Shown here: positions 5,455 to 64,000 of the stretch, one piece after another
Layout of the letters: each line of letters opens with the position of its first letter
Position numbering within the stretch: position 1 is the stretch's first letter
From: Prosopocoilus inquinatus
Lineage: Eukaryota; Arthropoda; Insecta; Coleoptera; Lucanidae
Length of the DNA: 64,000 bases
Reading direction: 5' to 3'
Assembly (NCBI GenBank): GCA_036172665.1
Contig: CM069874.1
Span: 26,867,946-26,931,945 of the forward strand
Program-made: the position numbers and the translations under genes
Notes under the pieces: model-generated
The model's database searches: none
Told to the model about the DNA's origin: nothing
The model's input: the letters and a program-made list of their open reading frames with translations, nothing else

Positions 5455-5780
5455 TTACGCCAATTTTTTGGCTTCAGTTGTTTGACGTCTTTTACAGACA
5501 ATACCAAATTTCGTTGCTGTTAGTCTTCGCTCTTTATGCCATTTCACTTTGGTGTTTTGGCCAACAGTGTTTCTCTCTAACGATTCTAACTCTACCTGGG
5601 TCCTGCTCAAGTAGTTCATTAAAGATGATTTCTTTTCTTCTAAGTTTTTAAGATGGATCACCTCTTCTATTCGTTCACTAGTCACCCTCAGCTTTGGCAT
5701 CCCGTTTTCTTTTCTGCCTTGCCCAGGAAATAGTCGTGCTCTGCATTTTCGGTAAAAACATCTCCTACGTAACTTTGACG
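5455..5780 (-). pseudogene. YqaJ protein, linker and start of nuclease domain
   Basis: The minus-strand frame reads through 5780-5455. It starts with a basic linker, followed by PKLRVTSERIEEV, a charged helix and KERRLTATKFGIVCKRR. The last piece is the opening motif of YqaJ domains (RLTATKFG then a basic CKRR), which precedes the catalytic half at 5065-5400. At 5780 the frame stops against the TATACAGTGTGCC terminus of the 5.85-kb element. The reading frame appears to resume on the far side at 11629. That junction is inferred from family order. No intact start codon is needed here because this is an interior segment. Confidence 0.7.
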
Positions 5781-6506
5781 TATACAGTGTGCCCGGATAG
5801 AAAGATGATTAAATTAGCAAAAAGGTGCAGGTTCGAGAGCTTATTAAGAATCCATTTTCAAATATTACTTGTCATGGCCAACTTGATTATATTGAGATGC
5901 GGTTTGACTTGTTTGCACGATAATTTAAGTACTTTTATGGGCACTTAATAAAACTAATCCCATTTTTACAAATTTTCTATAATCTAACCTAACCTTAAAA
6001 TTTTAAATTGGTGATTTTATTGGCCCTTTTAAGAGAGACTTTTTTCTAAATGCAATGATGTATCACATAATATGGAAACTTCTTCAAAATTTTGGGAAAC
6101 AGAGCTTATTCTTTTTATGAATAGAAATCGCTAGTGCCATGATCACAAAACTTTGTTATCGAGACTGTTGGAAGCTAACCGCGCCCTTGTTAACGTTGGT
6201 AATAAACGGGCGTTTACATTACATACATATTTGTATTATACATGTGTCCTACATATTGTTTGACAAATCTGGAATGAATCTGAAATTTGTCTCATACTAC
6301 TATTACATTTTTCATGTATTTGACATGTATCCGACACGTTTTACCAGACAGATTTGTATTCCAAATTAATGGAAAACACAGCGATCGCAGACCATACAAA
6401 GGTACTTTACGCACGTGCAGAATAGTTAGCTGTTTTAAACTATTAAGCGATCTGATGGTTTGTGACGATGGAGTGATCCAAAAAGAGCATAGTAATAATA
6501 TGCGGC
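5776..6506 (+). repeat. 731-bp direct repeat, copy A
   Basis: Bases 5776-6506 recur at 9866-10596, an exact offset of 4090. By eye the only difference is G at 6010 versus A at 10100. The copy includes five bases (TGACG) of flank outside the element terminus, so the duplication happened after insertion. The open frames inside (6139-6369 and 6287-6670) show no protein motif and are identical in both copies because the DNA is. Confidence 0.85.
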
Positions 6507-9500
6507 AGAAGCTGGAAATAGTTTTGAACGAAACAACACGTATTAGCGTTATTCCTGTGATGTATCTAATCGATCCTTACTTAGCTACTATGTTATTTGA
6601 CGTTTCGATGGACTCCAGTAACTCTATGGTGAGATACGAAATTTTCGGACGCAGCAGAAGCTGGAAATAGTTTTAAACGAAACAACACGCATTAGCGTTG
6701 TTCCTGTGATGTATCTAATCGATCCTTACTCATCTATCATGTTATTTGGCGTTTCGATGGACTCCAGTAACTTTGATGTGAGATACAAAGTTCTCGGACG
6801 CAGCAGAAGATGGAAATAGTTTTAAATGAAACAACACGTATTAGCGTTGTTCCTGTGATGTATCTAATGGATCCTTACTCATCTATCATGTTATTTTACG
6901 TTTGGATGGACTCCAGTAACTCTGATGTGAGATACAAAGTTTTTGGACGCAGCAGAAGCTGGAAATAGTTTTGAACGAAACAACACGTATTAGCAGTGTT
7001 CCTGTGATGTATCTAATCGATCCTTACTTAGCTACTATGTTATTTGACGTTTCGATGGACTCTAGTAACTCTATGGTGAGTTACGAAATTTTCGGACGCA
7101 GCAGAAGCTGGAAATAGTTTTAAACGAAACAACACGCATTAGCGTTGTTCCTGTGATGTATCTAATCGATCCTTACTCACCTATCATGTTATTTGGCGTT
7201 TCGATGGACTCCAGTATCTTTGATGTGAGATACGAAGTTCTCGGACGCAGCTGTAGCTGGAAATAGTTTAAAACGAAACAACACGCATTAGCGTTGTTCC
7301 TGTGATGTATCTAATCGATCCTTACTCATCTATCATGTTATTTGGCGTTTCGGTGGACTCCAGTAACTTTGATGTGAGATACGAAGTTCTCGGACGCAGC
7401 TGTAGCTGGAAATAGTTTTACGAAACAACACGCATTAGCGTTGTTCCTGTGATGTATCTAATTGATCTTTACTTATCTGTCAGGTTATTTGACGTTTCGA
7501 TGGACTCCAGTAACTCTGATGTGAGATACGACGTTTTCGGACGCAGCAGAAGCTGGAAATAGTTTTAAACGAAACAACACGTATTAGCGTTGTTCCTGTG
7601 ATGTATGTAATCGATCCTTACTCATCTATCATGTTATTTGACGTTTGGATGGACTCCAGTAACTCTGATGTGAGATACAAAGTTCTCGGACGCAGCAGAA
7701 GATGGAAATAGTTTTAAATGAAACAACACGCATTAGCGTTGTTCCTGTGATGTATCTAATCGATCCTTACTCATCTATCATGTTATTTGGCGTTTCGATG
7801 GACTCCAGTAACTTTGATGTGAGATACGAAGTTCTCGGACGCAGCTGAAGCTAGAAATAGTTTTAAACGAAACAACACGCATTAGCGTTGTGCCTGTGCT
7901 GTATCTAACCGATCCTTACTTATCTATCAGGTTATTTGACGTTTAGATGGACTCCAGTATCTCTGATGTGAGATACGACGTTTTCGGACGCAGCAGAAGC
8001 TGGAAATAGTTTTAAACGAAACAACACGCATTAGCGTTTTTCCTGTGATGTATCTAATCGATCCTTACTCATCTATCATGTTATTTGGCGTTTCGATGGA
8101 CTCCAGTAACTCTGATGTGAGATACGACGTTTTCGAACGCAGCAGAAGCTGGAAATAGTTTTAAACGAAACAACACGTATTAGCGTTGTTCCTGTGATGT
8201 ATGTAATCGATCCTTACTTATCTATCAGGTTATTTGACGTTTCGATGGACTCCAGTAACTCTGATGTGAGATACGACGTTTTCGAACGCAGCAGAAGCTG
8301 GAAATAGTTTTAAACGAAACAACACGTATTAGCGTTGTTCCTGTGATGTATGTAATCGATCCTTACTCATCTATCATGTTATTTGACGTTTGGATGGACT
8401 CCAGTAACTCTGATGTGAGATACAAAGTTCTCGGACGCAGCAGAAGATGGAAATAGTTTTAAATGAAACAACACGCATTAGCGTTGTTCCTGTGATGTAT
8501 CTAATCGATCCTTACTCATCTATCATGTTATTTGGCGTTTCGATGGACTCCAGTAACTTTGATGTGAGATACGAAGTTCTCGGACGCAGCTGAAGCTAGA
8601 AATAGTTTTAAACGAAACAACACGCATTAGCGTTGTGCCTGTGCTGTATCTAACCGATCCTTACTTATCTATCAGGTTATTTGACGTTTAGATGGACTCC
8701 AGTATCTCTGATGTGAGATACGACGTTTTCGGACGCAGCAGAAGCTGGAAATAGTTTTAAACGAAACAACACGCATTAGCGTTTTTCCTGTGATGTATCT
8801 AATCGATCCTTACTCATCTATCATGTTATTTGGCGTTTCGATGGACTCCAGTAACTCTGATGTGAGATACGACGTTTTCGAACGCAGCAGAAGCTGGAAA
8901 TAGTTTTAAACGAAACAACACGTATTAGCGTTGTTCCTGTGATGTATGTAATCGATCCTTACTTATCTATCAGGTTATTTGACGTTTCGATGGACTCCAG
9001 TAACTCTGATGTGAGATACGACGTTTTCGAACGCAGCAGAAGCTGGAAATAGTTTTAAACGAAACAACACGTATTAGCGTTGTTCCTGTGATGTATGTAA
9101 TCGATCCTTACTCATCTATCATGTTATTTGACGTTTGGATGGACTCCAGTAACTCTGATGTGAGATACAAAGTTCTCGGACGCAGCAGAAGCTGGAAATA
9201 GTTTTAAATGAAACAACACGCATTAGCGTTGTTCCTGTGATGTATCTAATCGATCCTTACTCATCTATCATGTTATTTGACGTTTCGATGGACTCTAGTA
9301 ACTCTGATGTGAGATACGAAGTTTTTGGGCGCAGCAGGAGCTGGAAATAGTTTTAAACAAAGCAACACGTATTAGCGTTGTTCCTGTGATGTACCTAATC
9401 GATCCTTACTCATCTATCACGTTATTTTATGTTTGGATGGACTCCAGTAACTCTGATGTGAGATACAATGTTTTTGGACGCAGCAGAAGCTGGAAATAGT

Positions 9501-9865
9501 TTTGAACGAAACATCACGTATTAGCGTTGTTCCTGTGATGTATCTAATCGATCCTTACTTAGCTACTATGTTATTTGACGTTTCGATGGACTCCAGTAAC
9601 TCTATGGTGAGATAGGAGATTTTCGGACGCAGCAGAAGCTGGAAATAGTTTTAAAGGAAACAACACGCTTTAGCGTTGTTCCTGTGATGTATCTAATCGA
9701 TCCTAACTCATCTATCATGTTATTTGGCGTTTCGATGGACTCCAGTAACTTTGATGTGAGATACGAAGTTCTCGGACGCAGCTGTAGCTGGAAATAGTTT
9801 TAAATGAAACAACACGTATTAGCGTTGTTCCTGTGATGTATCTAATCGATCCTTACTCATCTATC
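6507..9865. repeat. 149-bp satellite array, about 22 units
   Basis: Successive copies of the TGGAAATAG landmark fall at 6513, 6662, 6811, 6960, 7109, 7258, 7407, 7554, 7703 and 7852, giving a period of 149 bp with one 147-bp unit. Variant blocks recur every five units: ATGTATGTAATCGATCC at 7601, 8346 and 9091, exactly 745 bp apart. That is a 5-mer higher-order repeat. The unit has several CG dinucleotides (GTTTCGATGGACTCCAG, CTCGGACGCAGC) and a short hairpin (ACACGCATTAGCGTTGT). As 149 is not a multiple of three, no frame runs through. The array ends mid-unit at 9865, against direct repeat B. Confidence 0.95.
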
Positions 9866-10596
9866 TGACGTATACAGTGTGCCCGGATAGAAAGATGATT
9901 AAATTAGCAAAAAGGTGCAGGTTCGAGAGCTTATTAAGAATCCATTTTCAAATATTACTTGTCATGGCCAACTTGATTATATTGAGATGCGGTTTGACTT
10001 GTTTGCACGATAATTTAAGTACTTTTATGGGCACTTAATAAAACTAATCCCATTTTTACAAATTTTCTATAATCTAACCTAACCTTAAAATTTTAAATTA
10101 GTGATTTTATTGGCCCTTTTAAGAGAGACTTTTTTCTAAATGCAATGATGTATCACATAATATGGAAACTTCTTCAAAATTTTGGGAAACAGAGCTTATT
10201 CTTTTTATGAATAGAAATCGCTAGTGCCATGATCACAAAACTTTGTTATCGAGACTGTTGGAAGCTAACCGCGCCCTTGTTAACGTTGGTAATAAACGGG
10301 CGTTTACATTACATACATATTTGTATTATACATGTGTCCTACATATTGTTTGACAAATCTGGAATGAATCTGAAATTTGTCTCATACTACTATTACATTT
10401 TTCATGTATTTGACATGTATCCGACACGTTTTACCAGACAGATTTGTATTCCAAATTAATGGAAAACACAGCGATCGCAGACCATACAAAGGTACTTTAC
10501 GCACGTGCAGAATAGTTAGCTGTTTTAAACTATTAAGCGATCTGATGGTTTGTGACGATGGAGTGATCCAAAAAGAGCATAGTAATAATATGCGGC
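9866..10596 (+). repeat. 731-bp direct repeat, copy B
   Basis: A near-identical copy of 5776-6506 placed immediately after the satellite array. It begins with the same TGACG flank and TATACAG terminus. At 10597 it runs into CGCGGCC and sequence unlike the array. Together with copy A it brackets the array as a tandem duplication of a 4090-bp unit whose second copy lost its satellite, or as the footprint of a circle insertion. Confidence 0.85.
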
Positions 10597-19834: not shown

Positions 19835-20199
19835 CAGACTGTTAGTCTGTGTTTAGTATACAGCATCAAATTTAGCGCCTTCACCAACCTTTTAAAATTT
19901 CTATTTTGGGGAAATAAACATTATTATTCTATTGTAATAGCTAAAACAGCCAGCCACTTAGAAATTTTGTAAGCGTCTTTCTAGGCCGTCTTTCTTTTTT
20001 AGCGCGAATATAAAGAATGTGCAGTTGAAACTCGTAGCAATCCATGGAAAATTAACGTGTGTCTTAACTTAATCTTTCTCTTACTCATTAACATTTATTG
20101 AACGAAAGCTAAGTATAAAATTAATCATCTTGAAAACAGCTTTACGTTACATTTTTTTTAAAAAAATTATTTATGTTTATATTTATTAGAAAAAATTTT

Positions 20200-20428
20200 T
20201 TTTAGAAAAATTTTGTGCAAATCGTTTTTGATTGCAGTGAAAACCTCGAGCAGCCTCTGGACAGCTGTTTCAGCCCTGCTTGGGGCTTCTTCAGCAGAGA
20301 CGTAGCTCGACATTTCCACTGCAAACAAAAACGACTTGCCCAATTTATTCGCAATTGCGATGTAAGAGTGATGAACAGATAAAATAGCGACGACGGCGAA
20401 TAGTAAGATGTCGCTATTTTATCTGTTT
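20200..20428 (-). repeat. retrozyme-like repeat, dispersed copy 1
   Basis: A partial unit of the 311-bp hammerhead repeat family. It lies between TTTAGAAAAATTTTGTGCAA and an inverted pair AACAGATAAAATAGCGAC / GTCGCTATTTTATCTGTT (20374-20428) that makes an 18-bp hairpin. The ribozyme itself is intact in sequence. Confidence 0.85.
20253..20301 (-). ncRNA. hammerhead ribozyme (retrozyme consensus)
   Basis: Minus strand: stem I GTCTCTG, core CTGAAGA, stem II AGCCC/GGGCT with 6-nt loop, GAAA, stem III ACA/TGT with a 2-nt loop, H17 = C, stem I partner CAGAGGC. Stem I forms 7 pairs including one G-U. Predicted cleavage lies between 20260 and 20259. Confidence 0.85.
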
Positions 20429-29497: not shown

Positions 29498-32287
29498 GTT
29501 TTTATTTTTGTATTATAAAATAAATGTGACACATTTTTACTTAGAAGCAGAAAACAAATCTAACACTTTGATACAAATTGTGCCTTTAGAAATATTTTTC
29601 TTCAAACGATTCGACAACCTTTCGTAAATATTTCATCAAAACCCTTAAGTAACCCTTAAGCAAAGTGCAAGTTTTTGAAAAAACCAATACTGTCGATGTG
29701 CTCGGAACAAAATATTTCGCGAATACTTAAACATCCTTTTTTGCTTTGCGAAATGAGCACAGAATAATGTATCTGCTACGCCGGGCTGGGAAGGAAAGTA
29801 GCGAAGGGCCCACAAAAAGCAGGAAATCACGTTTTGATATTCCGCGACTCGAGCGAGGGACGTGGTGAGACGAAAATACACCTAAAATTCGACTTTTCCA
29901 GTACTCGGAAAGGGGGCGATGCCTGAAAATACCGAACCTGTATGCACTGCATGCGGACGTGTTACGAATATTCAAGTATATTCAGATTACGTGTCAGACT
30001 TTGTTAAGCAGAACGGCTCCGACTAATGTAAACCTGAAATTTATTAAATCTGGGAAAAGAGCGGTCTGATAATCCAATAATGTGAACTCCGAAATACAGG
30101 AATACCGAGTATTTAATTGTATTATGTGGTAACTCGAAAAACCTGTACTTCGAAAAATAAGAATTGAAACTTGAAACTAAAGTAAGAAACTTTACGCAGC
30201 AATCCTGAGCTCGATCGTAAACATAGTAAATTACGGTCTCTATCGCTTTGTAACAAATTTATCTAATTTTTTTACAAAAATTATCATCGTGTCGTACGGT
30301 TGCAACACGGATTCACGGCTGATTTTTTTTAAGTTCACTTCGCTATCAAATTAAGGAAAAATAAAGTTTTTCAATACATAAATTATTATGCTTTCTGCAG
30401 TAATCCTGTTTAGAAAACTTTTCGTCAAAATAATTAGTTTGCAAGCAGGTGTTCTGTTTATCGTTCCAATGAAAAATATATAAAGTTCTGATACCTAGTT
30501 GTAAATCACATCATTATTGGAGAGGAAGCTAAATACAGTCAGTGGTACAATCATACTTTTTTAGTAATTATTGAGGATACATTACTTTTAATTATGACTG
30601 TACATCCCACTGCCGGCTAATTCAATGGGACGGACTGGCTCAAATTGAGCGCTAAATAACTCAAGAAAATTAAACAAAATTGGCACCAGTTTTACACAGT
30701 CTTTATTCGGACACGCGAAAGTCATATCAAAAGTACTTCCAACATTACGCAATTACTCTAAACAACAAGTTTCAACGTCCTTTCTATTCCACGCGAGTTC
30801 ATTGCTTTTGTGACATAATTCAACTGTATCACATCAACCAATTTATATCTAAATCTTCAATACATTTTATCTCAAAAACTATGGACATTAGACCCCCTGT
30901 GCATATAGACTTTTTGTTTTCTTTTTCTGGGTACTACCTGTGGTTGACGGATGGGACACTTATTTTGAATCACCAGTATATATAGATAATAATTTAATTT
31001 CAACCTGGCAATATCCGACCTCATTCATTCACTAGGTTAACACGTTGAGTTTTCGTACAAGAGCGCGCGTCCCAACGAACAACGAGAAAGACGTTGCGTC
31101 CATCTGCGTCTCAGTGTGAACTTTATTAACAAGCAGTACCATCTGCTTTGTTCACGGAGTCCGGTCCAACCATTTATACACGTTCAACGATACCAATTAA
31201 TTACTCAAGTTCGTTCTGGAAATATCTTAAGAAGAAGCACCTATAATAAAAGAACGAAGCAGATATTACGAACTAAACGGCGCACATAAATGTCTTGTCA
31301 GAAATACCTGATTATCTGAAATTGTCAGGCTTTGAAAAGCAAAAATAAATTCTTTGTTTTGCGTAGAGTGCATTTTTCAGAACATGGAGTAGTATTTTCC
31401 GTTCAGAAATCACTCAGACTTACAGCCTGATGAAGCAACAAAATTGCAAGAGTTCATAAGCAAACGAAATACACTTCTCTGCGTTTAGCAATTCTACTGA
31501 CGCATTTGTACTTGATTCTGTGCAAAGCCAGAATCTAAGGCATGAAAAGAAGTCCCAAACTCACTTATTACAGTAACCTTCCCGAAAAATCAATACTATC
31601 AAGCGGAAAGATTAACGGCGACAATAAGATTGCTCAGTCAATAGCCATACTGGAGAATTTTGCGCTAATCGAGATTTTACATCGTACCAGTCAGTCAAAA
31701 ACAATGAACAATAAGAGACAATTAATTATCAAAAGCAGAAATCGTCAAATTGGTGACTCTGATCAAAGAAGTTACTTTCTACAAGAATTTGGCTGAAATT
31801 GAAAGGTAAAGAAACTGACAGAAGACCGATTACTGCAAGTAAACGAAAAAAACGGATCTGTCTCTAGCATCGTAATTAGCACAGAGAGATATAAATATTT
31901 TGTTCTTGGATAAGAACAGTTCTTGCCTTTCCATTGGATAATAATAACTGTCGTGTAAGAGTAGGGAGACATTAAATTGAACGATTTTCACATCAAAAGC
32001 AGTAGTTTGGTGGCGGAACAATTAAGGTACGGAGTGGAATAATTCTTGAGTATCGTACGAAACTTGCTATAGTAATAAAAAGGTCAATGTCTGCATAAGA
32101 TATAAAGTTGAAGTAATAAGCCCTACTGTAGCACCATTTACTGCACTACATGAACCAGAATTTATTTGTATGCGCGATAAAGCCGACCTAACGTTAGACA
32201 AATATCATAATTTAAATTACAAATATCATAATCTAAGAGTTTGCGGCAAGCAATATCGATATTTGAGAGCGTCGACACGTAACCAAG
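29498..32287. other. no gene recognised
   Basis: About 2.8 kb without a recognisable gene. GACGGATGGGACACTTATTTTGAATCACCAG near 30950-30980, in two parts, resembles the end of a mariner-type element (inverse of a CTGGTGATTCAAAATAA terminus). The 101-codon frame over it is therefore unlikely to be a gene. Confidence 0.4.
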
Positions 32288-32487
32288 CCCAATGTCCCAT
32301 TGAACATTTCTGAGAAAAGTTTGAGAGAAAGATTAAGGCTCTCGAAAGTCCTCCTAGGAAGTTACAGGAACTATCCATAATATTGTATGGCAACAATTCC
32401 TCAAGAGGAGTTTGTGTACTAATTCAAAGTATGTCTGAAAGAATTAGTGCTTGTATAAAAGCAAGTCCGCTCGCTACTAACTTGTAA
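32288..32487 (+). pseudogene. Tc1-like transposase C-terminal fragment
   Basis: The plus strand reads CPIEHF, a stop where Trp is expected, then EKFERKIKALESPPRK and LQELS. A frameshift around YGN follows, then LIQSMSERISACIKA and a stop after LATNL. This is the C-terminal end of a Tc1 transposase, starting at the last catalytic Glu motif (NPIEHLW in the family). Nothing upstream of it is recognisable, so it is truncated. Confidence 0.75.
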
Positions 32488-32888
32488 TATGTTTGTAAGT
32501 ATTTCTGCTTACAGAATTTAACTGTTTCGTATTTAATTAATTGAATAAATGATTGTAATTGAGTTTGTAAGCTCTTTTTTTATACCGTACACTCTGAAAA
32601 TAGAACAATTTTGAGCCCCTTTGATATTATTTCTACAATAAACAATAAATAAGTATTAAATAGCGCTGCTCAGAATTTTTAAAACTCAAAGAAGTAGTGA
32701 ACAGGTAAAATAGCGACATCTTACGATCGCTTTTTGACCTGACATTGCAGTAGGATAGACAAATTGAAGCGGGATTTGCTCCTAATAAGTCCCCCATGCA
32801 AGGCGGCCAAGCTTGCTGTCAAAGCATAATGAAAAATTTAGAAAAATTTTGTGCAAATCGTTTTTGATTGCAGTGAAAACCTCGAGCA

Positions 32889-32937
32889 GCCTCTGTACAG
32901 CTGTTTCAGCCCTGCTTGGGGCTTCTTCAGCAGAGAC
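32889..32937 (-). ncRNA. hammerhead ribozyme, cluster unit 1
   Basis: Same fold as 20253-20301, with H17 = A (complement of T at 32896) instead of C. A is permitted at that position. Stem II AGCCC/GGGCT and the 7-bp stem I are intact. Confidence 0.8.
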
Positions 32938-33199
32938 GTAGCTCGACATTCCCACTGCAAACAAAAACGACTTGTCCAATTTATTCGCAATTGCGATGTA
33001 AGAGTGATGAACAGATAAAATAGCGACATCTAACTATCGCTTTTTGACCTGACATTGCAGTAGGATAGACAAATTGAAGCGGGATTTGCTCCTAATAAGT
33101 CCCCCATGCAAGGCGGCCATGCTTGCTGTCAAAGCATAATGAAAATTTTTAGAAAAATTTTGTGCAAATCGTTCTTGATTGTAGTGAAAACCTCGAGCA

Positions 33200-33248
33200 G
33201 CCTCTGGACAGCTGTTTCAGCCCTGCTTGGGGTTTCTTCAGCAGAGAC
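33200..33248 (-). ncRNA. hammerhead ribozyme, cluster unit 2
   Basis: Core CTGAAGA and GAAA intact, H17 = C (33207). Stem II has one A-C mismatch (AACCC against GGGCT). It may be weaker than the consensus. Confidence 0.75.
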
Positions 33249-33372
33249 GTAGCAATGTCAGGTCAAAAATCGATAGTAAGATGTCGCTATTTTATCTGTT
33301 CATCACTCTTACATCGCAATTGCGAATAAATGGGACAAGTCATTTTTGTTTGCAGTGGAAATGTCGAGCTAC

Positions 33373-33421
33373 GTCTCTGCTGAAGAAGCCCCAAGCAGGA
33401 CTGAAACAGCTGTCCAGAGGC
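33373..33421 (+). ncRNA. hammerhead ribozyme, cluster unit 3
   Basis: Plus strand: GTCTCTG, CTGAAGA, AGCCC-loop-GGACT (one C-A mismatch), GAAA, CAGCTGT, C17 at 33414, CAGAGGC. Predicted cleavage lies between 33414 and 33415. Confidence 0.75.
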
Positions 33422-33683
33422 TGCTCGAGGTTTTCACTGCAATCAAGAACGATTCGCACAAAATTTTTCTAAAAATTTTCATTATGCTTTGACAGCAAGC
33501 ATGGCCGCCTTGCATGGGGGACTTATTAGGAGCAAATCCCGCTTCAATTTGTCTGTCCTACTGCAATGTCAGGTCAAAAAGCGATCGTAAGATGTCGCTA
33601 TTTTATCTGTTCATCACTCTTACATCGCAATTGCGAATAAATTGGGCAAGTCGTTTTTGTTTGCAGTGGGAATGTCGAGCTAC

Positions 33684-33732
33684 GTCTCTACTGAAGAAGC
33701 CCCAAGCAGTGCTGGAACATCTGTACAGAGGC
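33684..33732 (+). ncRNA. hammerhead ribozyme, cluster unit 4, core mutated
   Basis: Aligned to unit 3, the conserved GAAAC is GGAAC (A13 to G), stem II carries GTGCT, and stem I has GTCTCTA. H17 is A at 33725. The A13 change should abolish or strongly reduce cleavage. Confidence 0.7.
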
Positions 33733-33819
33733 TGCTCGAGGTTTTCACTGCAATCAAAAACGATTTGCACAAATTTTTTCAAAGAAGTAGATTAAAAAAG
33801 TATTAGATTCCTACATTCG

Positions 33820-34265
33820 ACTTTGAGAACGTACGGGTGGTATATAAATCGAATCTTTTACAAAAGAGCGGCTTCTAGTCGGTACCGATAGGCAAAGGCG
33901 ACAGGATTCCCCAAAGGTCCATTTTGGGACCGCTTTTATTTATTTTACGGTTTGTCTAAGCTGGACACAGGTACTAGATGTTGTTCGCCCGACATGCTTT
34001 GAACATTGAATATTTACAAACTACAACTATTAATGATTTATCAGTAAATTAAACTTTTCTTTGCGGTTTTCTTGTAGTAGATTATCATTCAAATTAAATA
34101 AAACTAAGGTATTTTTTATATTAGCCAATAGGACGTTAATTTTAGTCATGTAGATGTTGTACAAGAAGAAGGCATCAAATATTTAAGTGTCTTTATTGAC
34201 GCTTCGCTTCTCTAAAATGGAAACATCATATTTCGTTACTAGCAAGTGTGTTAGCAACAACGTTT
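33820..34265 (+). pseudogene. jockey-like LINE reverse transcriptase fragment
   Basis: In shifting plus-strand frames the sequence gives QRSILGPLLFIL (RT motif 4 region, about 33915-33950), then NKTKVFFILANRT (about 34090-34135). It ends with EEGIKYLSVFIDASL and WKHHISLLASVLATT, the motif after the catalytic domain in jockey-type elements. The FADD box is not present in readable form. The fragment is bounded on the left by the retrozyme cluster. Confidence 0.7.
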
Positions 34266-34852: not shown

Positions 34853-35814
34853 TAACCTCGTAAGTGTACACGTAACAATCTCCCGTTGTTAGTAGCACAC
34901 GCAGGTTTCACTAATATTTTAGTGACACCGGTGTGCAGTTTCATGTATTATAATAAAACGCTGTTTCACAGGAGATACAGTTTCATGCCTCACAAAGGAA
35001 AGCGACGGCCAACAAAAAAGTTTATGTCTTTATGGATGTACTCACTTCAATCAATCCAATTTAAACAAAAGAATACGCTATTACGGTCGTTCAGTTTGTG
35101 GCATTTTGTTAATTTGCTGTTGTTTTACCCTTTTAAGATGGACTTGTCACGTGATGTGCGCTGCGCTGAGCAGATAAGCTCCGCTTATAGGTCCTTCTCA
35201 TATTACGACCACTCAAAAGTGCATGAAAGTGTACTCACGCTAAATTTGTCGTACGATTTTAATACATTTATATTATTATAATGGATTAATAAAACATATT
35301 ACTTATTAAAAATATAAAAACCATCGATGTTATTAACAAATATTTGTTGCAAAAAGCGATCGTAGGTTGTCGCTGTTTTATCTATTTGATGTTATTAACG
35401 TAAGAAAACGTTTGATTATAAAATAGGATATTTTAAGTAATTTTAATTTTGATTATTATTTCAGATCTGCTCCCTTTCTTTGCTTTTTATAATAAAGAAT
35501 GAAGGCAATTTAAAAAGAATGTAGCCACGAAGAGAATTTATAGTTTTAATAAAAACATTTTGACATAATTGGCAAAATGTATAACAAAAGGTACTCGCGC
35601 TAAACCCTCTTTTTTGTATGCAAATTTATAGGGATATACTTTTGGGAAATGTGAAATTCATTTAACTATGAAAATAAATAAAATTTGAGTTAAGAAGTTT
35701 TTATTGCGAAGGCACAAATTGAACCAACCGCAACATACATAACGAAGTTAGTGTCCCGAACTTCGGGGATCCCCGGACCATTGTAATTTATATGAATACG
35801 TGTGTATGTTTCAG
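34853..35814. other. intron-like DNA upstream of the neuroligin exon
   Basis: No coding exon was recognised. The stretch 35338-35387 (AAAAGCGATCGTAGGTTGTC, CTGTTTTATCTATTT) is a short fragment of the retrozyme family. The 131-codon plus-strand frame 34886-35281 has no recognisable motif. Confidence 0.5.
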
Positions 35815-47761: not shown

Positions 47762-48057
47762 ACTATAACTTTTAAAAATTTTTTTATGCAAATCGTTTTT
47801 GACTGCAGTGAAAACCTCGAGCAGCCTCTGGACAGCTGTTTCAGCCCTGCTTGGGGCTTCTTCAGCAGAGACGTAGCTCGACATTCCCACTGCAGACCAA
47901 AAACGACTTGCCCAATTTATTCGCAAATGCGATGTAAGAATGATGAACAGATAAAATAGCGACATCTTACTATCGCTTTTTGACCTGACATTGCAGTAGG
48001 ATAGACAAATTGATTGGGATTTGCTCCTAATAAGTCCCCCATGCATGGGGGACTTAT
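47762..48057 (-). repeat. retrozyme-like repeat, dispersed copy 2
   Basis: Nearly one full unit of the 311-bp family with an intact hammerhead on the minus strand. It ends in a perfect 32-bp palindrome centred on CCCCCATGCATGGGGG (about 48028-48059). Confidence 0.85.
47824..47872 (-). ncRNA. hammerhead ribozyme (retrozyme consensus)
   Basis: Identical in its core to 20253-20301: stem I GTCTCTG/CAGAGGC, CTGAAGA, AGCCC/GGGCT, GAAA, ACAGCTGT, C17 at 47831. Predicted cleavage lies between 47831 and 47830. Confidence 0.85.
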
Positions 48058-48077
48058 TAAAGTTTTTTTATAATAAA

Positions 48078-48612
48078 CCGTTTAAATTCACATAATAAAA
48101 CCACTGTTAACTTTCGCATAAGAATGCCAGATTCAAACTTGCATACTTTTTATTGACTTTAAAGGTGCATATGAGATGGTAAATAGGAACATGTTACTGA
48201 AAGCCTTAAGAGAACAAGAATTTCCGGACAAAATGGTAAATTTAATCCAGATAACCTTAAAAGTTATAAACAGATAAAATAGCGACATCTTACTATCGCT
48301 TTTTGACCTGACATTGCAGTAGGATAGACAAATTGAAGCGGGATTTGCTCCTAATAAGTCCCCCATGCATGGGGGACTTATTAGGAGCAAATCCCAAAAC
48401 AATTTGTCTATCCTACTGCAATGTCAGGTCAAAAAGCGATAGTAAGATGTCGCTATTTTATCTGTTTATAACTTTTAAGGTTATCTGGATTAAATTTACC
48501 ATTTTGTCCGGAAATTCTTGTTCTCTTAAGGCTTTCAGTAACATGTTCCTATTTACCATCTCATATGCACCTTTAAAGTTAACAGTGGTTTTATTATGTG
48601 AATTTAAACGGT
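48078..48612. repeat. large palindrome centred at 48367/48368
   Basis: The left arm 48156-48367 is mirrored base by base by 48368-48579, with a small mismatched block (GAAGC against TTTTG). Beyond this the left arm has about 44 extra bases. The mirror then resumes for about 36 bp (AAACCGTTTAAATTCAC, AATAAAACCACTGTTAAC). The inner part of each arm is retrozyme-family sequence without the ribozyme; the outer part is LINE RT coding sequence. The centre is again CCCCCATGCATGGGGG. Confidence 0.85.
48149..48264 (+). pseudogene. LINE RT fragment, mirrored at 48471-48590
   Basis: The plus strand reads LFIDFKGAYEMVNRNMLLK, then ALREQEFPDKMVNLIQITLK: RT motif A (F-x-D-F-x-x-A-Y) and the helix after it. 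The palindrome's right arm carries the same stretch on the minus strand. It is truncated on both sides. Confidence 0.75.
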
Positions 48613-50339
48613 GTTTCCTGAAGACTTCTTAGTAGTAATTACCAGTGATTATTGAAGAAATTATTAATGGGAACTTAGGGTTCGATTAATTTTTATTTCA
48701 ATGCACAACATGATATACTTAATAAACTAATTTATTGAAAGCCGAATACAAAACATTTAAAGACTAATTTATTTATAACATAAACTGAGCGTAATGTTCA
48801 CAATCTATCGCGTTCCTTCCTCTGCCGAGCGTTTAAGATATGCCGGTGTTATACCAGAGTACTCTGAGAAAATTCTGGAGCGCGCAGACAGACAAATAAA
48901 ATATCTTATTTTATTAAAGATTATTTTGCAATGTAGCGAGCGAATCCTGGAAGGCAATTGCAATTGTTGTCAGATGTGCTTGCAAAAGTAATTATTAATC
49001 TCCAATCCTAGGTTGTACATATAACAAACGTGGTTTATTTTAGCTCTTCACTTATCCTAGCAATTTAGCGAACTTTTAAATACCCTGTATAGATAGTTAA
49101 TGTAGTACTACTGTAAATGGCGAATTTTGCTCTCGATGGAAATAATAAAAGAAAGATAATAGAATTTGGTATTTTTTCTTTGATCATCATTTAAAGCGGT
49201 TTATTATTGATTTATCAAATAAAATTACTGTTAGTAAAAATATTACCTTACTGTTCGTTCAAATGTTTTTGAGTGTTGAGACCTCAAAAAGCAAAATTTA
49301 AAATCGTTGACATTTTATTAAATTTATAGAAAAAATATTTTTTTGACTTCGATTCTAAACTATAACTATTACTGTTAAAGTATTCATGTCTTCTCTGTTT
49401 AATATGTTCAGTTGATTTATGTTTTCCGGAACATTGTAATTAACTTACATTAACTGTACGGATCAGTTAAAAAAACGGAATGAATTTTTTGTACTTGTTC
49501 TAAAAACTTAACTCATCTACGTCACACTCAAACACATTGCAAATGAATTCTAAATTGAAAAAAGAGCTTTTTCCAACGTACGAGGTAAAAGCACGCTGCT
49601 GCTTTCTCATACATTTTCACGACTCCAAAGCTTTGGACGTTTCAGAGCGAAATTCTCTGCGTTAATTAAAGAAAATTGCCACTGTAACAAACGAAGGTGC
49701 TAATGATTTATAACGACGAATCGAAAGAGTGCCTCGTGCTGTGTTATTCCGCCAGACTTGCTAATGCTGCTTTATCGGCGATAACTGTGGACCATTTTAT
49801 ATGGCTCGTTATTTTTAAACGATCGCGCGCTCGTAAAATTCTGGCTTTGATATCCACCCCTTCGGCCAATGAAGCTAATGAACCACCTCCAATCTACATT
49901 AGCCCGCATGCTTTGCTCTGGTGCTGTTAAAGCTGAGGATGAACTAATTTATATAACGGAGGCGGTAACTATGTCGTTAAGGGTTCGTTTTTTATCAGTA
50001 AATATGACGACGGGTTTTATTTTATTAAAGATGTATGCGAATAAAGTGAATATACTACCAAACGGTTATTCTTGAAAAGACCAATCAAAAAGACTGGGGA
50101 AAGAATAGACTCATCACAAAACATGTTTTTGTGCCACTCGTTATAATTGTTAAAATTATCCAAACACCTTATTGCATTAGACGAAAACAAAAATACACAG
50201 TTTTAAAAGCGTACCTGCAACAAGCGTTTTTTACACAGAAAATCGAAGTCATAAAATCGTTGAAATTGAAATGAATATACCGTTGACTGTTTCACATCTT
50301 GAGTAAAAGTAATATTAAAAATCTAAAATAGTAAAGGAG
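48613..50339. other. no gene recognised
   Basis: About 1.7 kb of AT-rich sequence. Short open frames (48794-48991, 49697-49930, 49869-50075) show no family motif. Nothing repeat-like was recognised. Confidence 0.4.
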
Positions 50340-50725: not shown

Positions 50726-50765
50726 AAATTTAACAGCAACTTCATCTCTAGGAAAATTTGTTAAA

Positions 50766-51020
50766 ATGCCTTTCGATCCGTTTTGCACCAAAGGTTTAAA
50801 AAATATTTTTAAAACCCAAAACTTACGATTAGGTTTTTCAACTAACAATACCATAAAGAATTTATTGGGAAACCCGAAAGATAAAGTTCATGTTGAACAG
50901 AAATCTGGAATTTATGAAATTAAGTGTAACGAATGTACTAGTAAATATATTGGACAAACAAAAAGAAATATACTAACACATTTTAAAGAACATTTAAGTC
51001 ACTACAAGTACAATAGGTAA
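50766..51020 (+). pseudogene. Penelope-like element GIY-YIG endonuclease fragment
   Basis: PLE proteins end in a GIY-YIG single-strand-nicking endonuclease. This 84-codon frame has TKGLKNIFKTQNLRLGFSTNN (the conserved stretch before the domain), then KSGIYEIKCNECTSKYIGQT with the GIY and YIG signature halves and the CxxC between them. RNILTHFKEHLSHY follows, with the domain's helix. The usual Arg of the helix is present (KRN). The frame then stops directly at a hammerhead-like relic (51012-51056), so the C-terminal part of the endonuclease is missing. No RT precedes it. Frame and motifs are well preserved, so it is younger than the PLE remnant at 28.3-29.5 kb. Confidence 0.8.
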
Positions 51021-51056: not shown

Positions 51057-51349
51057 ATAAAAATTATTGTGTGGGCGGAGGTTAATTTCAATTATTAAAA
51101 ATCTTCTTTTTTTAGAAATATTAGACCGCAGAAAATTGTGTCTGGGGATAAAGAGATACATTTTGTAAATGCGTAATAAAATTTTGTGTAATATGTCCAA
51201 CAACTGCAAATTGTAACATTTCTTTAATTTTCTCATCTTGAATAACTACTCTTTTTAGCCACACTAAAAGTTACTTACTGGCTGTATCTTGCTTGTATTT
51301 AGTTATCGAACATGCATAAACTGTTGGCGTAAAAACTTGAAATAGACTT

Positions 51350-51645
51350 AAAAAATTTTTGTTGCAAATCGTTTTTAATTGCAGTGAAAACCTCGTGAAA
51401 ACGTAGCTCGAAAATCCCACTGCAAACCAAAAACGACTCGACTAATTTATTTTGCGAATAAATTGGTCAAGTCGTTTTTGGTTTGCAAATTTTTTTTAAA
51501 TCTTTCATTATGCTTTGACAGCAAGCATGGCCACCCTGCATGTGGTAAACTTATTATGTAGTAAACCCGCTTCAATTTGTCTGTCCTACTGCAATGTTAG
51601 GTCAAAAGGGGATCGTAGAATGTCGCTGTTTTATCTATTTAAAAT
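51350..51645. repeat. retrozyme-like repeat, degenerate copy
   Basis: Blocks AAATCGTTTTTAATTGCAGTG, GCAAACCAAAAACGACT, TTATGCTTTGACAGCAAGC and GTCGCTGTTTTATCTATTT belong to the family. They are rearranged, with an inverted pair (51425-51490), and the ribozyme segment is deleted. Confidence 0.7.
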
Positions 51646-55546: not shown

Positions 55547-56623
55547 TTAGATTACATCTGTGTATCGTTAATGATTATAGTCCCAATTTTTATGATCCCA
55601 ACTGAACAACAGGCTGCAAGCTATTGAAATTGTTACTAAATTTAAATTTGATGTCCAAAAATCCTGTATTACTTACATCAAAGCCAGTCCGAAACGGAAC
55701 GCTTTCATCATTGTTGTAAAATTTCGCGAGCCAATTATGAAGTTGAATTCTTTCATTCATTGTCACTTTCTTGTGCGACTTTATCAGACTTGACATAAAT
55801 TGAAAAAGCTTTCAGTGGTACCAATAGCATAAGAATTTCCTGTCTGTCAGCGCCAGAGAATTTTATCCCTTACAAAACGGAATTTCGACGTTATACTCAA
55901 TTACTCCCGTTACATTAACTAATTTATGAGGAAGTAAAAAGCGGTATTGATTCGATGTGAGTTCTTTGGGAGCATTCAAAAGGCTAATGACGATTCTCCG
56001 ATGTTTAAGTATTGAAATTATGAATTGAAGAACTTTTCATAAAATCGAGTTGCTTTTAGAAAAGAAATAAATTAAGGCTGTCGATTTTCAAATTTAATTC
56101 TGGAATTAAAAATTATCGGTTGTACATAATACATTCATTCATGCTGTATAAGCTCATATTCCGCTTAGAGGACGTTATTCCTGTCGCCATAAAATCGCAA
56201 CGAATTTACTCGTATATCTCGTTCTCAATTTTATTGCGTCTTGCTTTGTGCTCGTGCACAGACGTGTTCTGATTTTTTCGCTCCAGCTTTACCCAAATCA
56301 TAATCACGTTCAGGCTCCAGTACAAAATATAGCCGGTTTAACGCTGTTTTAAATAACTGTTTGAATTTTCGTGTATGTACATGCACGTTCTGATACTATT
56401 AAAGGAAAACTGAAATAATTTATAATTACTAAAATTCACAATGGAAAATGAATTTCAAAAAAGAAAAACGTTTTGTTCAATTTTCTTGGCTTACGGCCAG
56501 TTACTATGCAGCCAATCGTAACTATACCGGAACTTTATAATTGACTGTACCCCTCGTACTCAAATTATCCAAGTGAATTAGTCTTGTTTGTACAGCATTT
56601 GAGAAAAGTAATTTTGTGTAAAC
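55547..56623. other. no gene recognised
   Basis: AT-rich spacer between the LINE and mariner copy 1. The last about 60 bp (CAGCATTTGAGAAAAGTAAT) are mariner 5' untranslated sequence, shared with copy 2. Confidence 0.45.
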
Positions 56624-57723
56624 ATGGAAATCCCGCGTGAAAATTTTCGTGCCATGACTTTTTAAATCAAACGTAGTCTAACGCCGAAACAATGCCTCGA
56701 TCGGCTTCATTTGGTTTTCGGAGATGAAGCACCATCAAAGAGCAGTGTTTATAATTGGTTTGCCGAATTCCAGCGTGGACGCACCTCTCTCAGTGACGAA
56801 TTTCGTGAAGATCGTCCATCAACATCTGTTGTTGCCACTAATGTAGATGCTGTGCGTGAAATGCTTGAGCGAGATCGACATGTCACATACCTTGAGATTC
56901 AAGCATCCTTACGCATTGACATGAAAGCAATACACCAGATTTTGCAAGATTATTTGAACGTACGAAAGCTTTGCAGTCGTTGGATCCCACACAATTTAAT
57001 AGAAGCACAAAAGCAGGTCGTCTCAAATGGTGCGAAGAAATGCTCAAGAAATTCAATGGAGGTCGTTCAAATTTAGTTTATAACATCGTTACTGGTGACG
57101 AAACGTGCATCTATTTGTTCGAGCCAGAAAGTAAACAACAATCTACCGTTTGGGTATTTCAAAATGAACCAAAACCAACAAAAGTTAAGCAAGTAATTGC
57201 TTGTTTCTTTGGTTTAACTGGACATGTAGCAATGTGGCTTTAGAGGATCGAAAGACCGTGAATGCTGATTGGTACACTACAATTTGTTTGCCGGAAGTCA
57301 TTGATCAAATAAGAAGAAACAATCGAAATCGACGAATTATTTTCCATCATGACAACGCCACCTCTCACTCAGCCCGTCAAACAGTTGATTTTTTGTCCAA
57401 TAAAAATGTTGAATTAATGACTCATTGTCCATACTCACCTGATTTATCACCTAATGATTTCTTTTTGTTTCCAAATATCAAAAATAAAACGTACGTGGTG
57501 AGCGATTTTCGTCGGCTGAAGCAGCGGTTGAAACATTCCGGACACTGGTTTCTGAGGTACCATCTTTAGAGTGGAAAACGTGCTTTAGAAATTGATTCGA
57601 GCGTATGCAAAAGTACATTGACGTCAAAGGCGAATACTTCGAAAAACAATGATACCGTTTACCAAATTTCATATGCGTTTTTTCATACCGTTTCCAGAAA
57701 CTTTTCCAGCAGCCCACGTATGA
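56624..57723 (+). pseudogene. mariner transposase, copy 1, frameshifted
   Basis: Mariner transposases use a DD34D triad. From ATG at 56624 (MEIPRENFRAM) a one-base slip in a T run (about 56660) precedes KRSLTPKQCLDRLHLVFGDEA, SSVYNWFAEFQRG and the second helix-turn-helix. Then come CSRWIPHNL, a shift near 57015, VYNIVTGDET (first Asp; the following Trp is Cys), and a further gap near 57240. IIFHHDNATSH (second Asp, about 57345) and YSPDLSPNDFFLF (third Asp, about 57435) follow. A last shift occurs near 57540, and the end is ETFPAAHV at 57723. The length of about 1.1 kb is full size. The WIPHNL and YSPDL motifs fit the mellifera-type group. At least three frameshifts, so inactive. Confidence 0.92.
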
Positions 57724-62734: not shown

Positions 62735-63844
62735 TTATACGTGGGCTGCTGGAAAAGTTTCTGGAAACGGTATGAAAAATCGCATATGAAATTTGGTAAA
62801 CGTAAATTGTTTTTCGAAGTATTCGCCTTTGACGTCAATACACTTTTGCATATGCTCGAACCAATTTCTAAAGCACGTTTTCCACTCTAAAGATGGAACC
62901 TCAGAAACCAGTGTCCGGAATGTTTCAACCGCTGCTTCAGCCGACGAAAATCGCTCACAACGTATTTTATTTTTGACATTTGGGAACAGAAAGAAATCAT
63001 TAGGTGATAAATCAGGTGAATATGGACAATGAGTCATTAATTCAACATTTTTGGTGGACAAAAAATCAACGTTTGACGGGCTGAGTGAGAGCTGGCGTTG
63101 TCATGATGGAAAATAATTCGTCGATTTCGATTGTTTCTTCTTATTTGATCGATGACTTCCGGCAAACAAATTGTAGTATACCAATCAGCATTCACGGGTT
63201 TTCGATCCTCTAAAGCCACGGTTGCTAAATGTCCAGTTAAACCAAAGACACAAGCAATCATTTGCTTCGCAGCACTGCGTGAACGGACAACTTTTGTTGG
63301 TTTTGGTTCATTTTGAAATATCCAAACGGTAGATTGTTGTTTACTTTCTGGCTCGTACGAATAGATCCACGTTTCGTCACCAGTAACGATGTTATAAACT
63401 AAATTTGAGCGACCTCCATTGAATTTCTTGAGCATTTCTTCGCACCATTCGACACGACCCTGCTTTTGCGCTTCTGTTAAATTGTGTGGGATCCATCGAC
63501 TGCAAAGCTTTCGTACGTTCAAATAATCTTGCAAAATCTGGTTTATTGCTTTCATGTCAATAAGTAAGGATGCTTGAATCTCACATGTCGATCTCGCTCA
63601 AGCATTTCACGCACAGCATCTACTTTAGTAGCAACAACAGATGTTGATGGACGACTTTCACGAAATTCGTCACTGAGAGAGGTACTTCCACGCTGGAATT
63701 CGGGAAACCAATTATAAACACTGCTCTTTGATGGTGCTTCATCTCCAAAAGCCAAATGAAGACCATCGAGGCATTGTTTCGGCGTTAGACCACATTTGAA
63801 ATCGTAAAAATCATGGCACGAAAATTTTCACTCGAGATTTTCAT
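62735..63844 (-). pseudogene. mariner transposase, copy 2, frameshifted
   Basis: Same family as 56624-57723, in inverse orientation. ATG at 63844 (MKISSENFRAMIF) is followed by a one-base loss in a T run (about 63810), then GLTPKQCLDGLHLAFGDEA and SSVYNWFPEFQRG. A 10-bp deletion near 63575 ends the first frame. From MKAINQILQDYL a long frame runs through CSRWIPHNLTEAQKQ, VTGDETWIY (first Asp), AAKQMIACVFG, TTICLPEVIDQIRR and IIFHHDNASSH (second Asp). A one-base loss near 63070 shifts to YSPDLSPNDFFLF (third Asp) and the C-terminus at 62735. All three catalytic Asp codons survive. Three frameshifts make it inactive. It is less decayed than copy 1. Confidence 0.92.
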
Positions 63845-64000
63845 GTTTACACAAAATTACTTTTTCTCAAATGCTGTACAAACAAAACTAGTTCACTTGG
63901 ATAGGAACTGTCAATAGAATTATAGGCGAAAAACGTCAAATTTTTTAAATATGACAGTTGAAAAACGCTAACAATTCTAGACCTACTAGATTTCAGAAAA

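Follow-up and report, generated by a model that had tools for sequence, protein, structure and literature searches.

Head-to-head retrozyme insertions with two fixed ends in Prosopocoilus inquinatus suggest priming by a Penelope-like element protein from both target strands

In the genome of Prosopocoilus inquinatus, a family of hammerhead retrozymes is inserted predominantly as two blocks of opposite orientation whose outer ends lie at two fixed positions of the unit, typically one of each per insertion, and the resident Penelope-like element (PLE) is laid out on the same plan. It is probable that a PLE protein uses both cut target strands to prime reverse transcription (RT) of the retrozyme RNA, each strand at one of two fixed sites within that RNA. 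The features that can be read directly, namely RNA 5’ ends that lie inside, outer ends at site A or site B, duplications of ~12 bp, varied junctions with microhomology, and the same plan in the PLE, point to a PLE-driven process, in which the identity of the enzyme, the sharing of the sites, the activity of the ribozyme, and the formation of circles are inferred.

Within the window (the whole stretch of 64,000 nucleotides that was analysed), a single insertion at 32698–33779 consists of a 311-bp unit arranged in two oppositely oriented blocks. As an exact 11-mer bounds the whole array, both blocks probably entered as one insertion. Its features are as follows.

32687–32697, no strand: left copy of the target-site duplication, 11 bp, CAAAGAAGTAG; its only plus-strand occurrences in the window are at 32687 and 33780
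32698–33253, minus strand: minus block, 1.8 laps of the 311-bp unit, outer RNA 3’ end at site B (unit position about 199)
32876–32946, minus strand: hammerhead with intact core and stem II, cleavage nucleotide 32896, the sole unit of the array to pass the strict scan
33187–33253, minus strand: second minus-strand hammerhead, cleavage nucleotide 33207, one stem II mismatch (by eye)
33252–33254, no strand: head-to-head junction where the RNA 5’ ends of both blocks meet, with 2-nt microhomology (GC)
33254–33779, plus strand: plus block, 1.7 laps of the 311-bp unit, outer RNA 3’ end at site A (unit position about 53–55)
33374–33420, plus strand: hammerhead, cleavage nucleotide 33414, one C-A mismatch in stem II (sequence reading and Rfam)
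33415–33725, plus strand: complete 311-nt lap used as coordinate reference, position 1 being the nucleotide after cleavage
33685–33735, plus strand: hammerhead, cleavage nucleotide 33725, GGAA for GAAA and a stem II mismatch, probably inactive (by eye)
33780–33790, no strand: right copy of the target-site duplication, 11 bp, the second of the two plus-strand occurrences in the window

A sequence-only reading of this DNA had placed cleavage sites 311 nt apart on both strands, and the register can indeed be read directly from the sequence at nucleotides 32896 and 33207 (minus) and 33414 and 33725 (plus); the unit spacing is 311 nt, with one pair at 310 nt, and both orientations are present. The head-to-head junction it proposed was located at 33252–33254 with the GC overlap, but the layout, which it took to be unusual for arrays of this kind, is in fact the common form in this family (32/41 analysed insertions). 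Its term ‘retrozyme-like’ is borne out by a noncoding 311-bp unit, a type I hammerhead with a very short stem III, tandem laps, a target-site duplication, and many copies. GC content is 39% over 32001–34000, flanks counted in, and no stop-to-stop ORF of at least 120 aa overlaps the element, which thus lacks the RT plus GIY-YIG ORF of an autonomous PLE. Judged from its sequence, the array is an insertion of a multicopy hammerhead retrozyme with a noncoding, low-GC unit within the range of 150–450 bp.

A strict hammerhead pattern (core, 4-bp stem II, 5-bp stem I, and short stem III) finds three sites in the window, compared to a mean of 0.01 and a maximum of one in 100 Markov-sampled windows; the hammerhead is more than chance. 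Four units had been credited with a full core, of which the pattern accepts only that with predicted cleavage nucleotide 32896; intact hammerhead copies elsewhere in the window lie at 20260 and 47831. By eye the other three have a mismatch in stem II, and the copy at 33725 has a change in the core as well. The covariance-model check that the sequence-only reading had put forward came out divided. The type I family RF00163 was the top Rfam family on the copy at 33374–33420, scanned within 111 nt (23.5 bits, E 5.5e-4), and on its sister at 20254–20300 (25.8 bits, E 9.8e-5), but both matches score below the gathering score of 34 and the family was missed elsewhere: a scan of the entire window at gathering thresholds returned 0 matches, a 2.5-kb scan at E ≤ 5 returned no hammerhead match, and on the 32896 copy HH9 was the only hammerhead family (13.7 bits), second behind a miRNA family. 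Matches to mir-3431 and mir-4776 (17–22 bits, gathering scores 97–100) were set aside as weak and as tracking the long stem. Over the laps of the 41 insertions the core columns of the hammerhead are 98–100% conserved, and the predicted fold contains stems I and II in two hammerhead copies, while they are absent from the fold of the 33414 copy.

Searching the host genome (650 Mb, 173 contigs) with the unit gave 2673 first-look candidates (40 scored) and at least 155 matches; 38 clusters, grouped by eye among the matches listed and mostly chosen by best match, were fetched, and the copies in the window were added. The 41 insertions analysed comprise 37 that were fetched and four in the window. 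Locus L035, with alternating and rearranged blocks contrary to the simple two-block plan, and the insertion at 47776–48466 are excluded from the counts of ends, duplications, and laps. The window holds the following further copies, absent from the sequence-only reading.

20190–20424, no strand: second insertion, a minus block (site A) followed by a short plus block (site B), 15-bp duplication
35338–35387, no strand: 50-bp insertion, a single placed block (plus) ending at site B, 12-bp duplication
47776–48466, no strand: insertion with a 12-bp duplication (47764–47775 and 48467–48478) and a later inverted duplication of its right half (48060–48369) (by eye)
51349–51641, no strand: insertion with internal deletions, left end at site A, right end at site B, 9-bp duplication

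At 47764–48640, the right half of this A+B insertion and its flank are duplicated in inverted form about an axis at the head-to-head junction CCCCCATGCATGGGGG, with a palindrome at 48153–48582 as the result; head-to-head junctions may seed such secondary inverted duplications. Elsewhere in the window, 5776–10596 holds a 149-bp satellite (22.6 copies, 6505–9865) bounded on each side by the same 731-bp sequence (99.9% identical), and two elements at 56566–57721 and 62737–63903, which we take to be mariner-like from their ORFs, are 91% identical and in opposite orientation.

Two blocks are present in 32/41 insertions, and in all 32 the minus block lies to the left and the plus block to the right, such that the RNA 5’ ends meet inside and the RNA 3’ ends face the flanks. 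The outer RNA 3’ ends lie at site A (30 ends at 53–70; median, 55.5) or site B (41 ends at 191–209; median, 198), a distance of 143 nt, with class limits (A, 44–72; B, 188–212) that were chosen after the first tables were seen. The two-ended insertions (n = 32) pair A with B in 30 cases, A with A in 0, and B with B in 0, and in 2 cases one end falls outside the classes. A single block is found in 9/41 insertions, each with one placed end, all at site B. Because the 38 clusters had been picked by best match, five 10-kb stretches at round coordinates were sampled as well; this arbitrary 50 kb held two insertions, both head-to-head and A+B with 13- and 9-bp repeats, and three stretches were without any. 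A-primed blocks are shorter than B-primed blocks, from which no meaning is drawn, since the search query is biased towards loci whose B blocks are long. The mean difference between laps of separate insertions is 3.6%.

Flanking repeats of at least 8 bp (median, 12 bp) occur in 30/41 insertions compared to 47/656 control pairings, and duplication lengths range over 9–16 bp across insertions. The 30 repeats of at least 9 bp are 84% AT, compared to 71–72% for the flanks and 66% for the window. Duplications >4 bp and PLEs in one genome, as described for metazoan non-LTR retrozymes, are both found here. The 32 two-armed insertions have 31 distinct junctions, which suggests that nearly every insertion was made anew. 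Junction positions are scattered over the unit (KS p 0.38), the unit positions joined are a median of 77 nt apart (within 10 nt in 2/32), and microhomology averages 3.4 nt over 27 gap-free junctions compared to 0.69 nt for random junctions, a test that drops junctions with extra bases (7/32) and includes the two blocks of the 47776–48466 insertion, which share one junction. The junction common to L038 and L043 (unit positions 21/255, 8-nt microhomology) is either a joining hot spot or the trace of a shared source.

Blocks longer than one lap (44/73, the longest about 5.4 laps) indicate that cDNA synthesis continues across the cleavage point. All laps are alike at four variable positions in 29/36 informative insertions, and 7/36 are mixed, where shuffling gives an expectation of 26.2 discordant insertions (minimum 18 in 1000). 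Position 49 is excluded from this test on account of its location in the site-A homopolymer; when it is counted, concordance is 220/275 within strands, 172/196 across strands, and 70% between insertions. Both arms have the same alleles in 24/28 informative two-armed insertions, a minority allele being shared in 8 of those 24, and differ in 4/28. The pattern fits two cDNAs copied from a single RNA, which would often be circular or a multimer of uniform units. Among the seven allele-mixing exceptions is the array at 32698–33779: the same two alleles alternate in both arms at positions 33 and 311, so that its template likely held at least two kinds of unit, though position 172 breaks that order. 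A strict one-circle template was rejected for this array on its mixed alleles. The predicted circular folds of two laps (−100 and −106 kcal/mol) would place site A within the loop of a hairpin at 46–65 and leave site B single-stranded, just 3’ of a hairpin ending at 195.

Variation among the laps has features of its own. A-to-G changes in the RNA sense are enriched in the long predicted stem (59/2075 A cells compared to 16/2367 T cells for T-to-C), and over the laps of the 41 insertions they concentrate at unit positions 33, 232, and 256, where they may be editing or old subfamily variants. A 5’ G is a disfavoured neighbour for ADAR editing, and such editing is not claimed as the source, with 47/59 changes at three sites, two of which have this 5’ G. 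In the run of about five laps at locus L024, lap 4 nearly matches lap 1 and lap 3 nearly matches lap 0, probably because three laps were duplicated as DNA once the insertion was in place.

The resident PLE is arranged in the same manner. When the same genome was searched for GIY-YIG, 150 of 2232 candidates were scored and 150/150 matched, and among the adjacent pairs within 8 kb at these 150 places (n = 47) the order is minus-plus in 46, plus-minus in 0, and tandem in 1 (2604 bp). Eleven minus-plus pairs of one family (PLE-1) were fetched, a non-random choice made up of the ten pairs with the smallest spacing plus one that has a long ORF. In these selected pairs the outer ends lie at two positions about 40 nt apart (355–359 and 393–398 in L077), with one of each in 11/11, and the flanking repeats measure 11–16 bp (counted without a control). 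The pairs match L077 at about 99–100%, and L077 itself has a single 785-aa ORF with RVT_1 and GIY-YIG. The two-end, head-to-head plan is common to the resident PLE and the retrozyme, and the retrozyme insertions have head-to-head arms, two putative RT start positions with a tail at one end only, and an 8–16-bp duplication, as in PLE-type integration. PLE-1 junctions are near-palindromic in 7/11 selected pairs (L067–L072 and L075), recurring near L077 positions 950 and 1060, compared to 2/32 within 10 nt in the retrozyme.

L077 also has a hammerhead-like motif with the same CTGAAGA core as the retrozyme and a palindromic stem III; Rfam at gathering score does not report it. A trial alignment of PLE hammerheads had stem II out of register and was set aside as the basis for a covariance model. 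Between the hammerhead and the end, the similarity of retrozyme and PLE-1 is insignificant (equalled by 161/500 shuffles, and by 70/500 for the downstream part alone), and so no common recognition motif is shown; a stretch noted by eye at both ends (TCGAGG..TTTTC..ACT) was dropped, the region-wide alignment being insignificant. The genome has at least one further PLE family, and the helper family is therefore not fixed. L048 contains, at 1501–2459, a GIY-YIG fragment that did not group with any of the other loci fetched; a retrozyme insertion is found no more than about 400 bp away. In the window, 50749–50966 is 67% identical to PLE-1 and is a probable decayed PLE remnant.

A sequence of steps can be proposed from these features. 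The hammerhead would cut transcripts into units, which would be ligated to circles, and the PLE endonuclease would cut the target in a staggered fashion, leaving 3’ overhangs. One overhang would prime at site A and the other at site B, and each event seems to allot one site to each strand. Both cDNAs would then travel round the retrozyme RNA, often past one lap, and their 3’ ends, both antisense, could join through short inverted complementarity with subsequent fill-in. Several observations run contrary to a PLE-driven origin: the spacing of A and B is 143 nt in the retrozyme compared to about 40 nt in PLE-1, divergence is 3.6% between retrozyme laps compared to the match of the PLE-1 pairs to L077 at ~99–100%, and to these are added the one-block, B-only insertions (9/41), the layout of L035, the mixed alleles (7/36), the differences between arms (4/28), and the junction common to L038 and L043.

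Other routes to such insertions were weighed against priming by a PLE protein on an RNA circle. One retains the remaining steps and takes the template to be a linear multimer from genomic arrays, which is possible though doubtful. A PLE protein used unprocessed RNA in vitro (PMC11167929), alleles are mixed in 7/36 insertions, including the array at 32698–33779, and young, uniform arrays could still account for the uniformity of alleles, but 29/36 insertions are allele-uniform where shuffling expects 26.2 to be discordant, a circle more readily accounts for runs of about five laps, and transcripts of two-orientation arrays would be palindromic. Snap-back self-priming, in which a single cDNA folds back and copies itself to give the inverted arm, would agree with the near-palindromic junctions in 7/11 PLE-1 pairs and with published head-to-head palindromes (PMC3846280). 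It would, however, repeat one outer end, and ends of the same kind are found in 0/32 retrozyme insertions (30 A+B, 2 unclassed) and PLE-1 has one of each in 11/11; retrozyme junctions also join different unit positions (median distance, 77 nt), and this route is improbable.

LINE-type twin priming would have a LINE protein begin copying at the RNA 3’ end, with the second strand primed at any internal position and the 5’ part inverted as a result. It shares the outward geometry, the target-site duplications, and the microhomology where the orientation switches; we consider it quite improbable, given that both outer ends are fixed rather than one, no poly(A) tail is evident at the insertion ends inspected, two blocks occur in 32/41 insertions, and the resident PLE shows the same two-site plan. 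The A+B rule thus argues against both snap-back, which repeats one end, and LINE twin priming, which fixes one end. A DNA-level inverted duplication, or a foldback or MITE-like DNA transposon with ends A and B, would be in keeping with the secondary inverted duplication at 47776–48466, the probable three-lap DNA duplication in L024, and the one junction common to L038 and L043, but it is highly improbable in view of 31 distinct junctions in 32 two-armed insertions, a variable number of laps (>5 at most), and a duplication length of 9–16 bp with no single fixed value.

Taking the PLE-driven reading further, we lean slightly towards animal retrozymes in general being satellites of PLEs, with the PLE RNP gripping one circle at two sites, one for each strand of the staggered cut, both strands being extended simultaneously around that circle and the two cDNAs annealing midway. 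If true, the A+B rule would be an obligate two-site loading step in PLE retrotransposition, of which each insertion of both elements is a record, and a one-of-each-site constraint would be added to the little-known mechanism of PLEs. The retrozyme insertions themselves bear the signature of a PLE, including two fixed start sites each used once per insertion, in a genome whose own PLE follows the same plan, and the question of the helper becomes testable in vitro. Two-orientation hammerhead arrays, which might otherwise be mistaken for misassembly or fortuitous palindromes, would be explained.

Among known systems, twin-primed (5’-inverted) LINE insertions resemble the present family in their outward 3’ ends and microhomology junction. 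Such insertions have one fixed 3’ end and a second priming site that is random, whereas both ends are fixed in the retrozyme. Rotifer Penelope copies have inverted ends with a tail on one, duplications, and head-to-head palindromes, ascribed to self-priming on an antisense template (PMC3846280). With the EN-containing PLEs of that account the retrozyme shares head-to-head inverted ends, an optional tail at one end, 8–10-bp duplications in the cases named there, and palindromes, but it has no ORF, its unit is just 311 bp, and its start sites are 143 nt apart instead of 30–40 nt. The purified PLE of Anolis (Poseidon) cuts and extends both strands in vitro from two adjacent internal start sites on the RNA, and the ‘tail’ of genomic PLE copies is described as the stretch between both RT start sites (PMC11167929). 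The retrozyme insertions are alike in the putative cutting and extension of both strands, two putative internal RT starts, and an AT-rich target; the experiments described for Poseidon give no apparent difference in start site between strands, whereas here no insertion uses one site twice.

The metazoan non-LTR retrozymes were described by Cervera and de la Peña in 2020 as tandem repeats, and the word ‘inverted’ is absent from the main text (PMC7229834). The present family resembles them in its type I hammerhead, tandem units of 150–450 bp, low GC, duplications >4 bp, and PLEs in the genome; it appears to differ from that description in its two fixed ends and two-orientation insertions, and circular RNA was shown for those retrozymes (PMC7229834), whereas circles are a prediction for the present family. 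None of the titles and abstract openings found in the open-licence literature describes two-orientation retrozyme insertions, though a prior report is possible. A PLE helper for animal retrozymes was proposed in 2020 from co-occurrence, tandem copies, and the hammerheads in PLEs, with the mobilising enzyme left open (PMC7229834). Beyond that suggestion, a PLE signature appears to be legible in the retrozyme insertions themselves.
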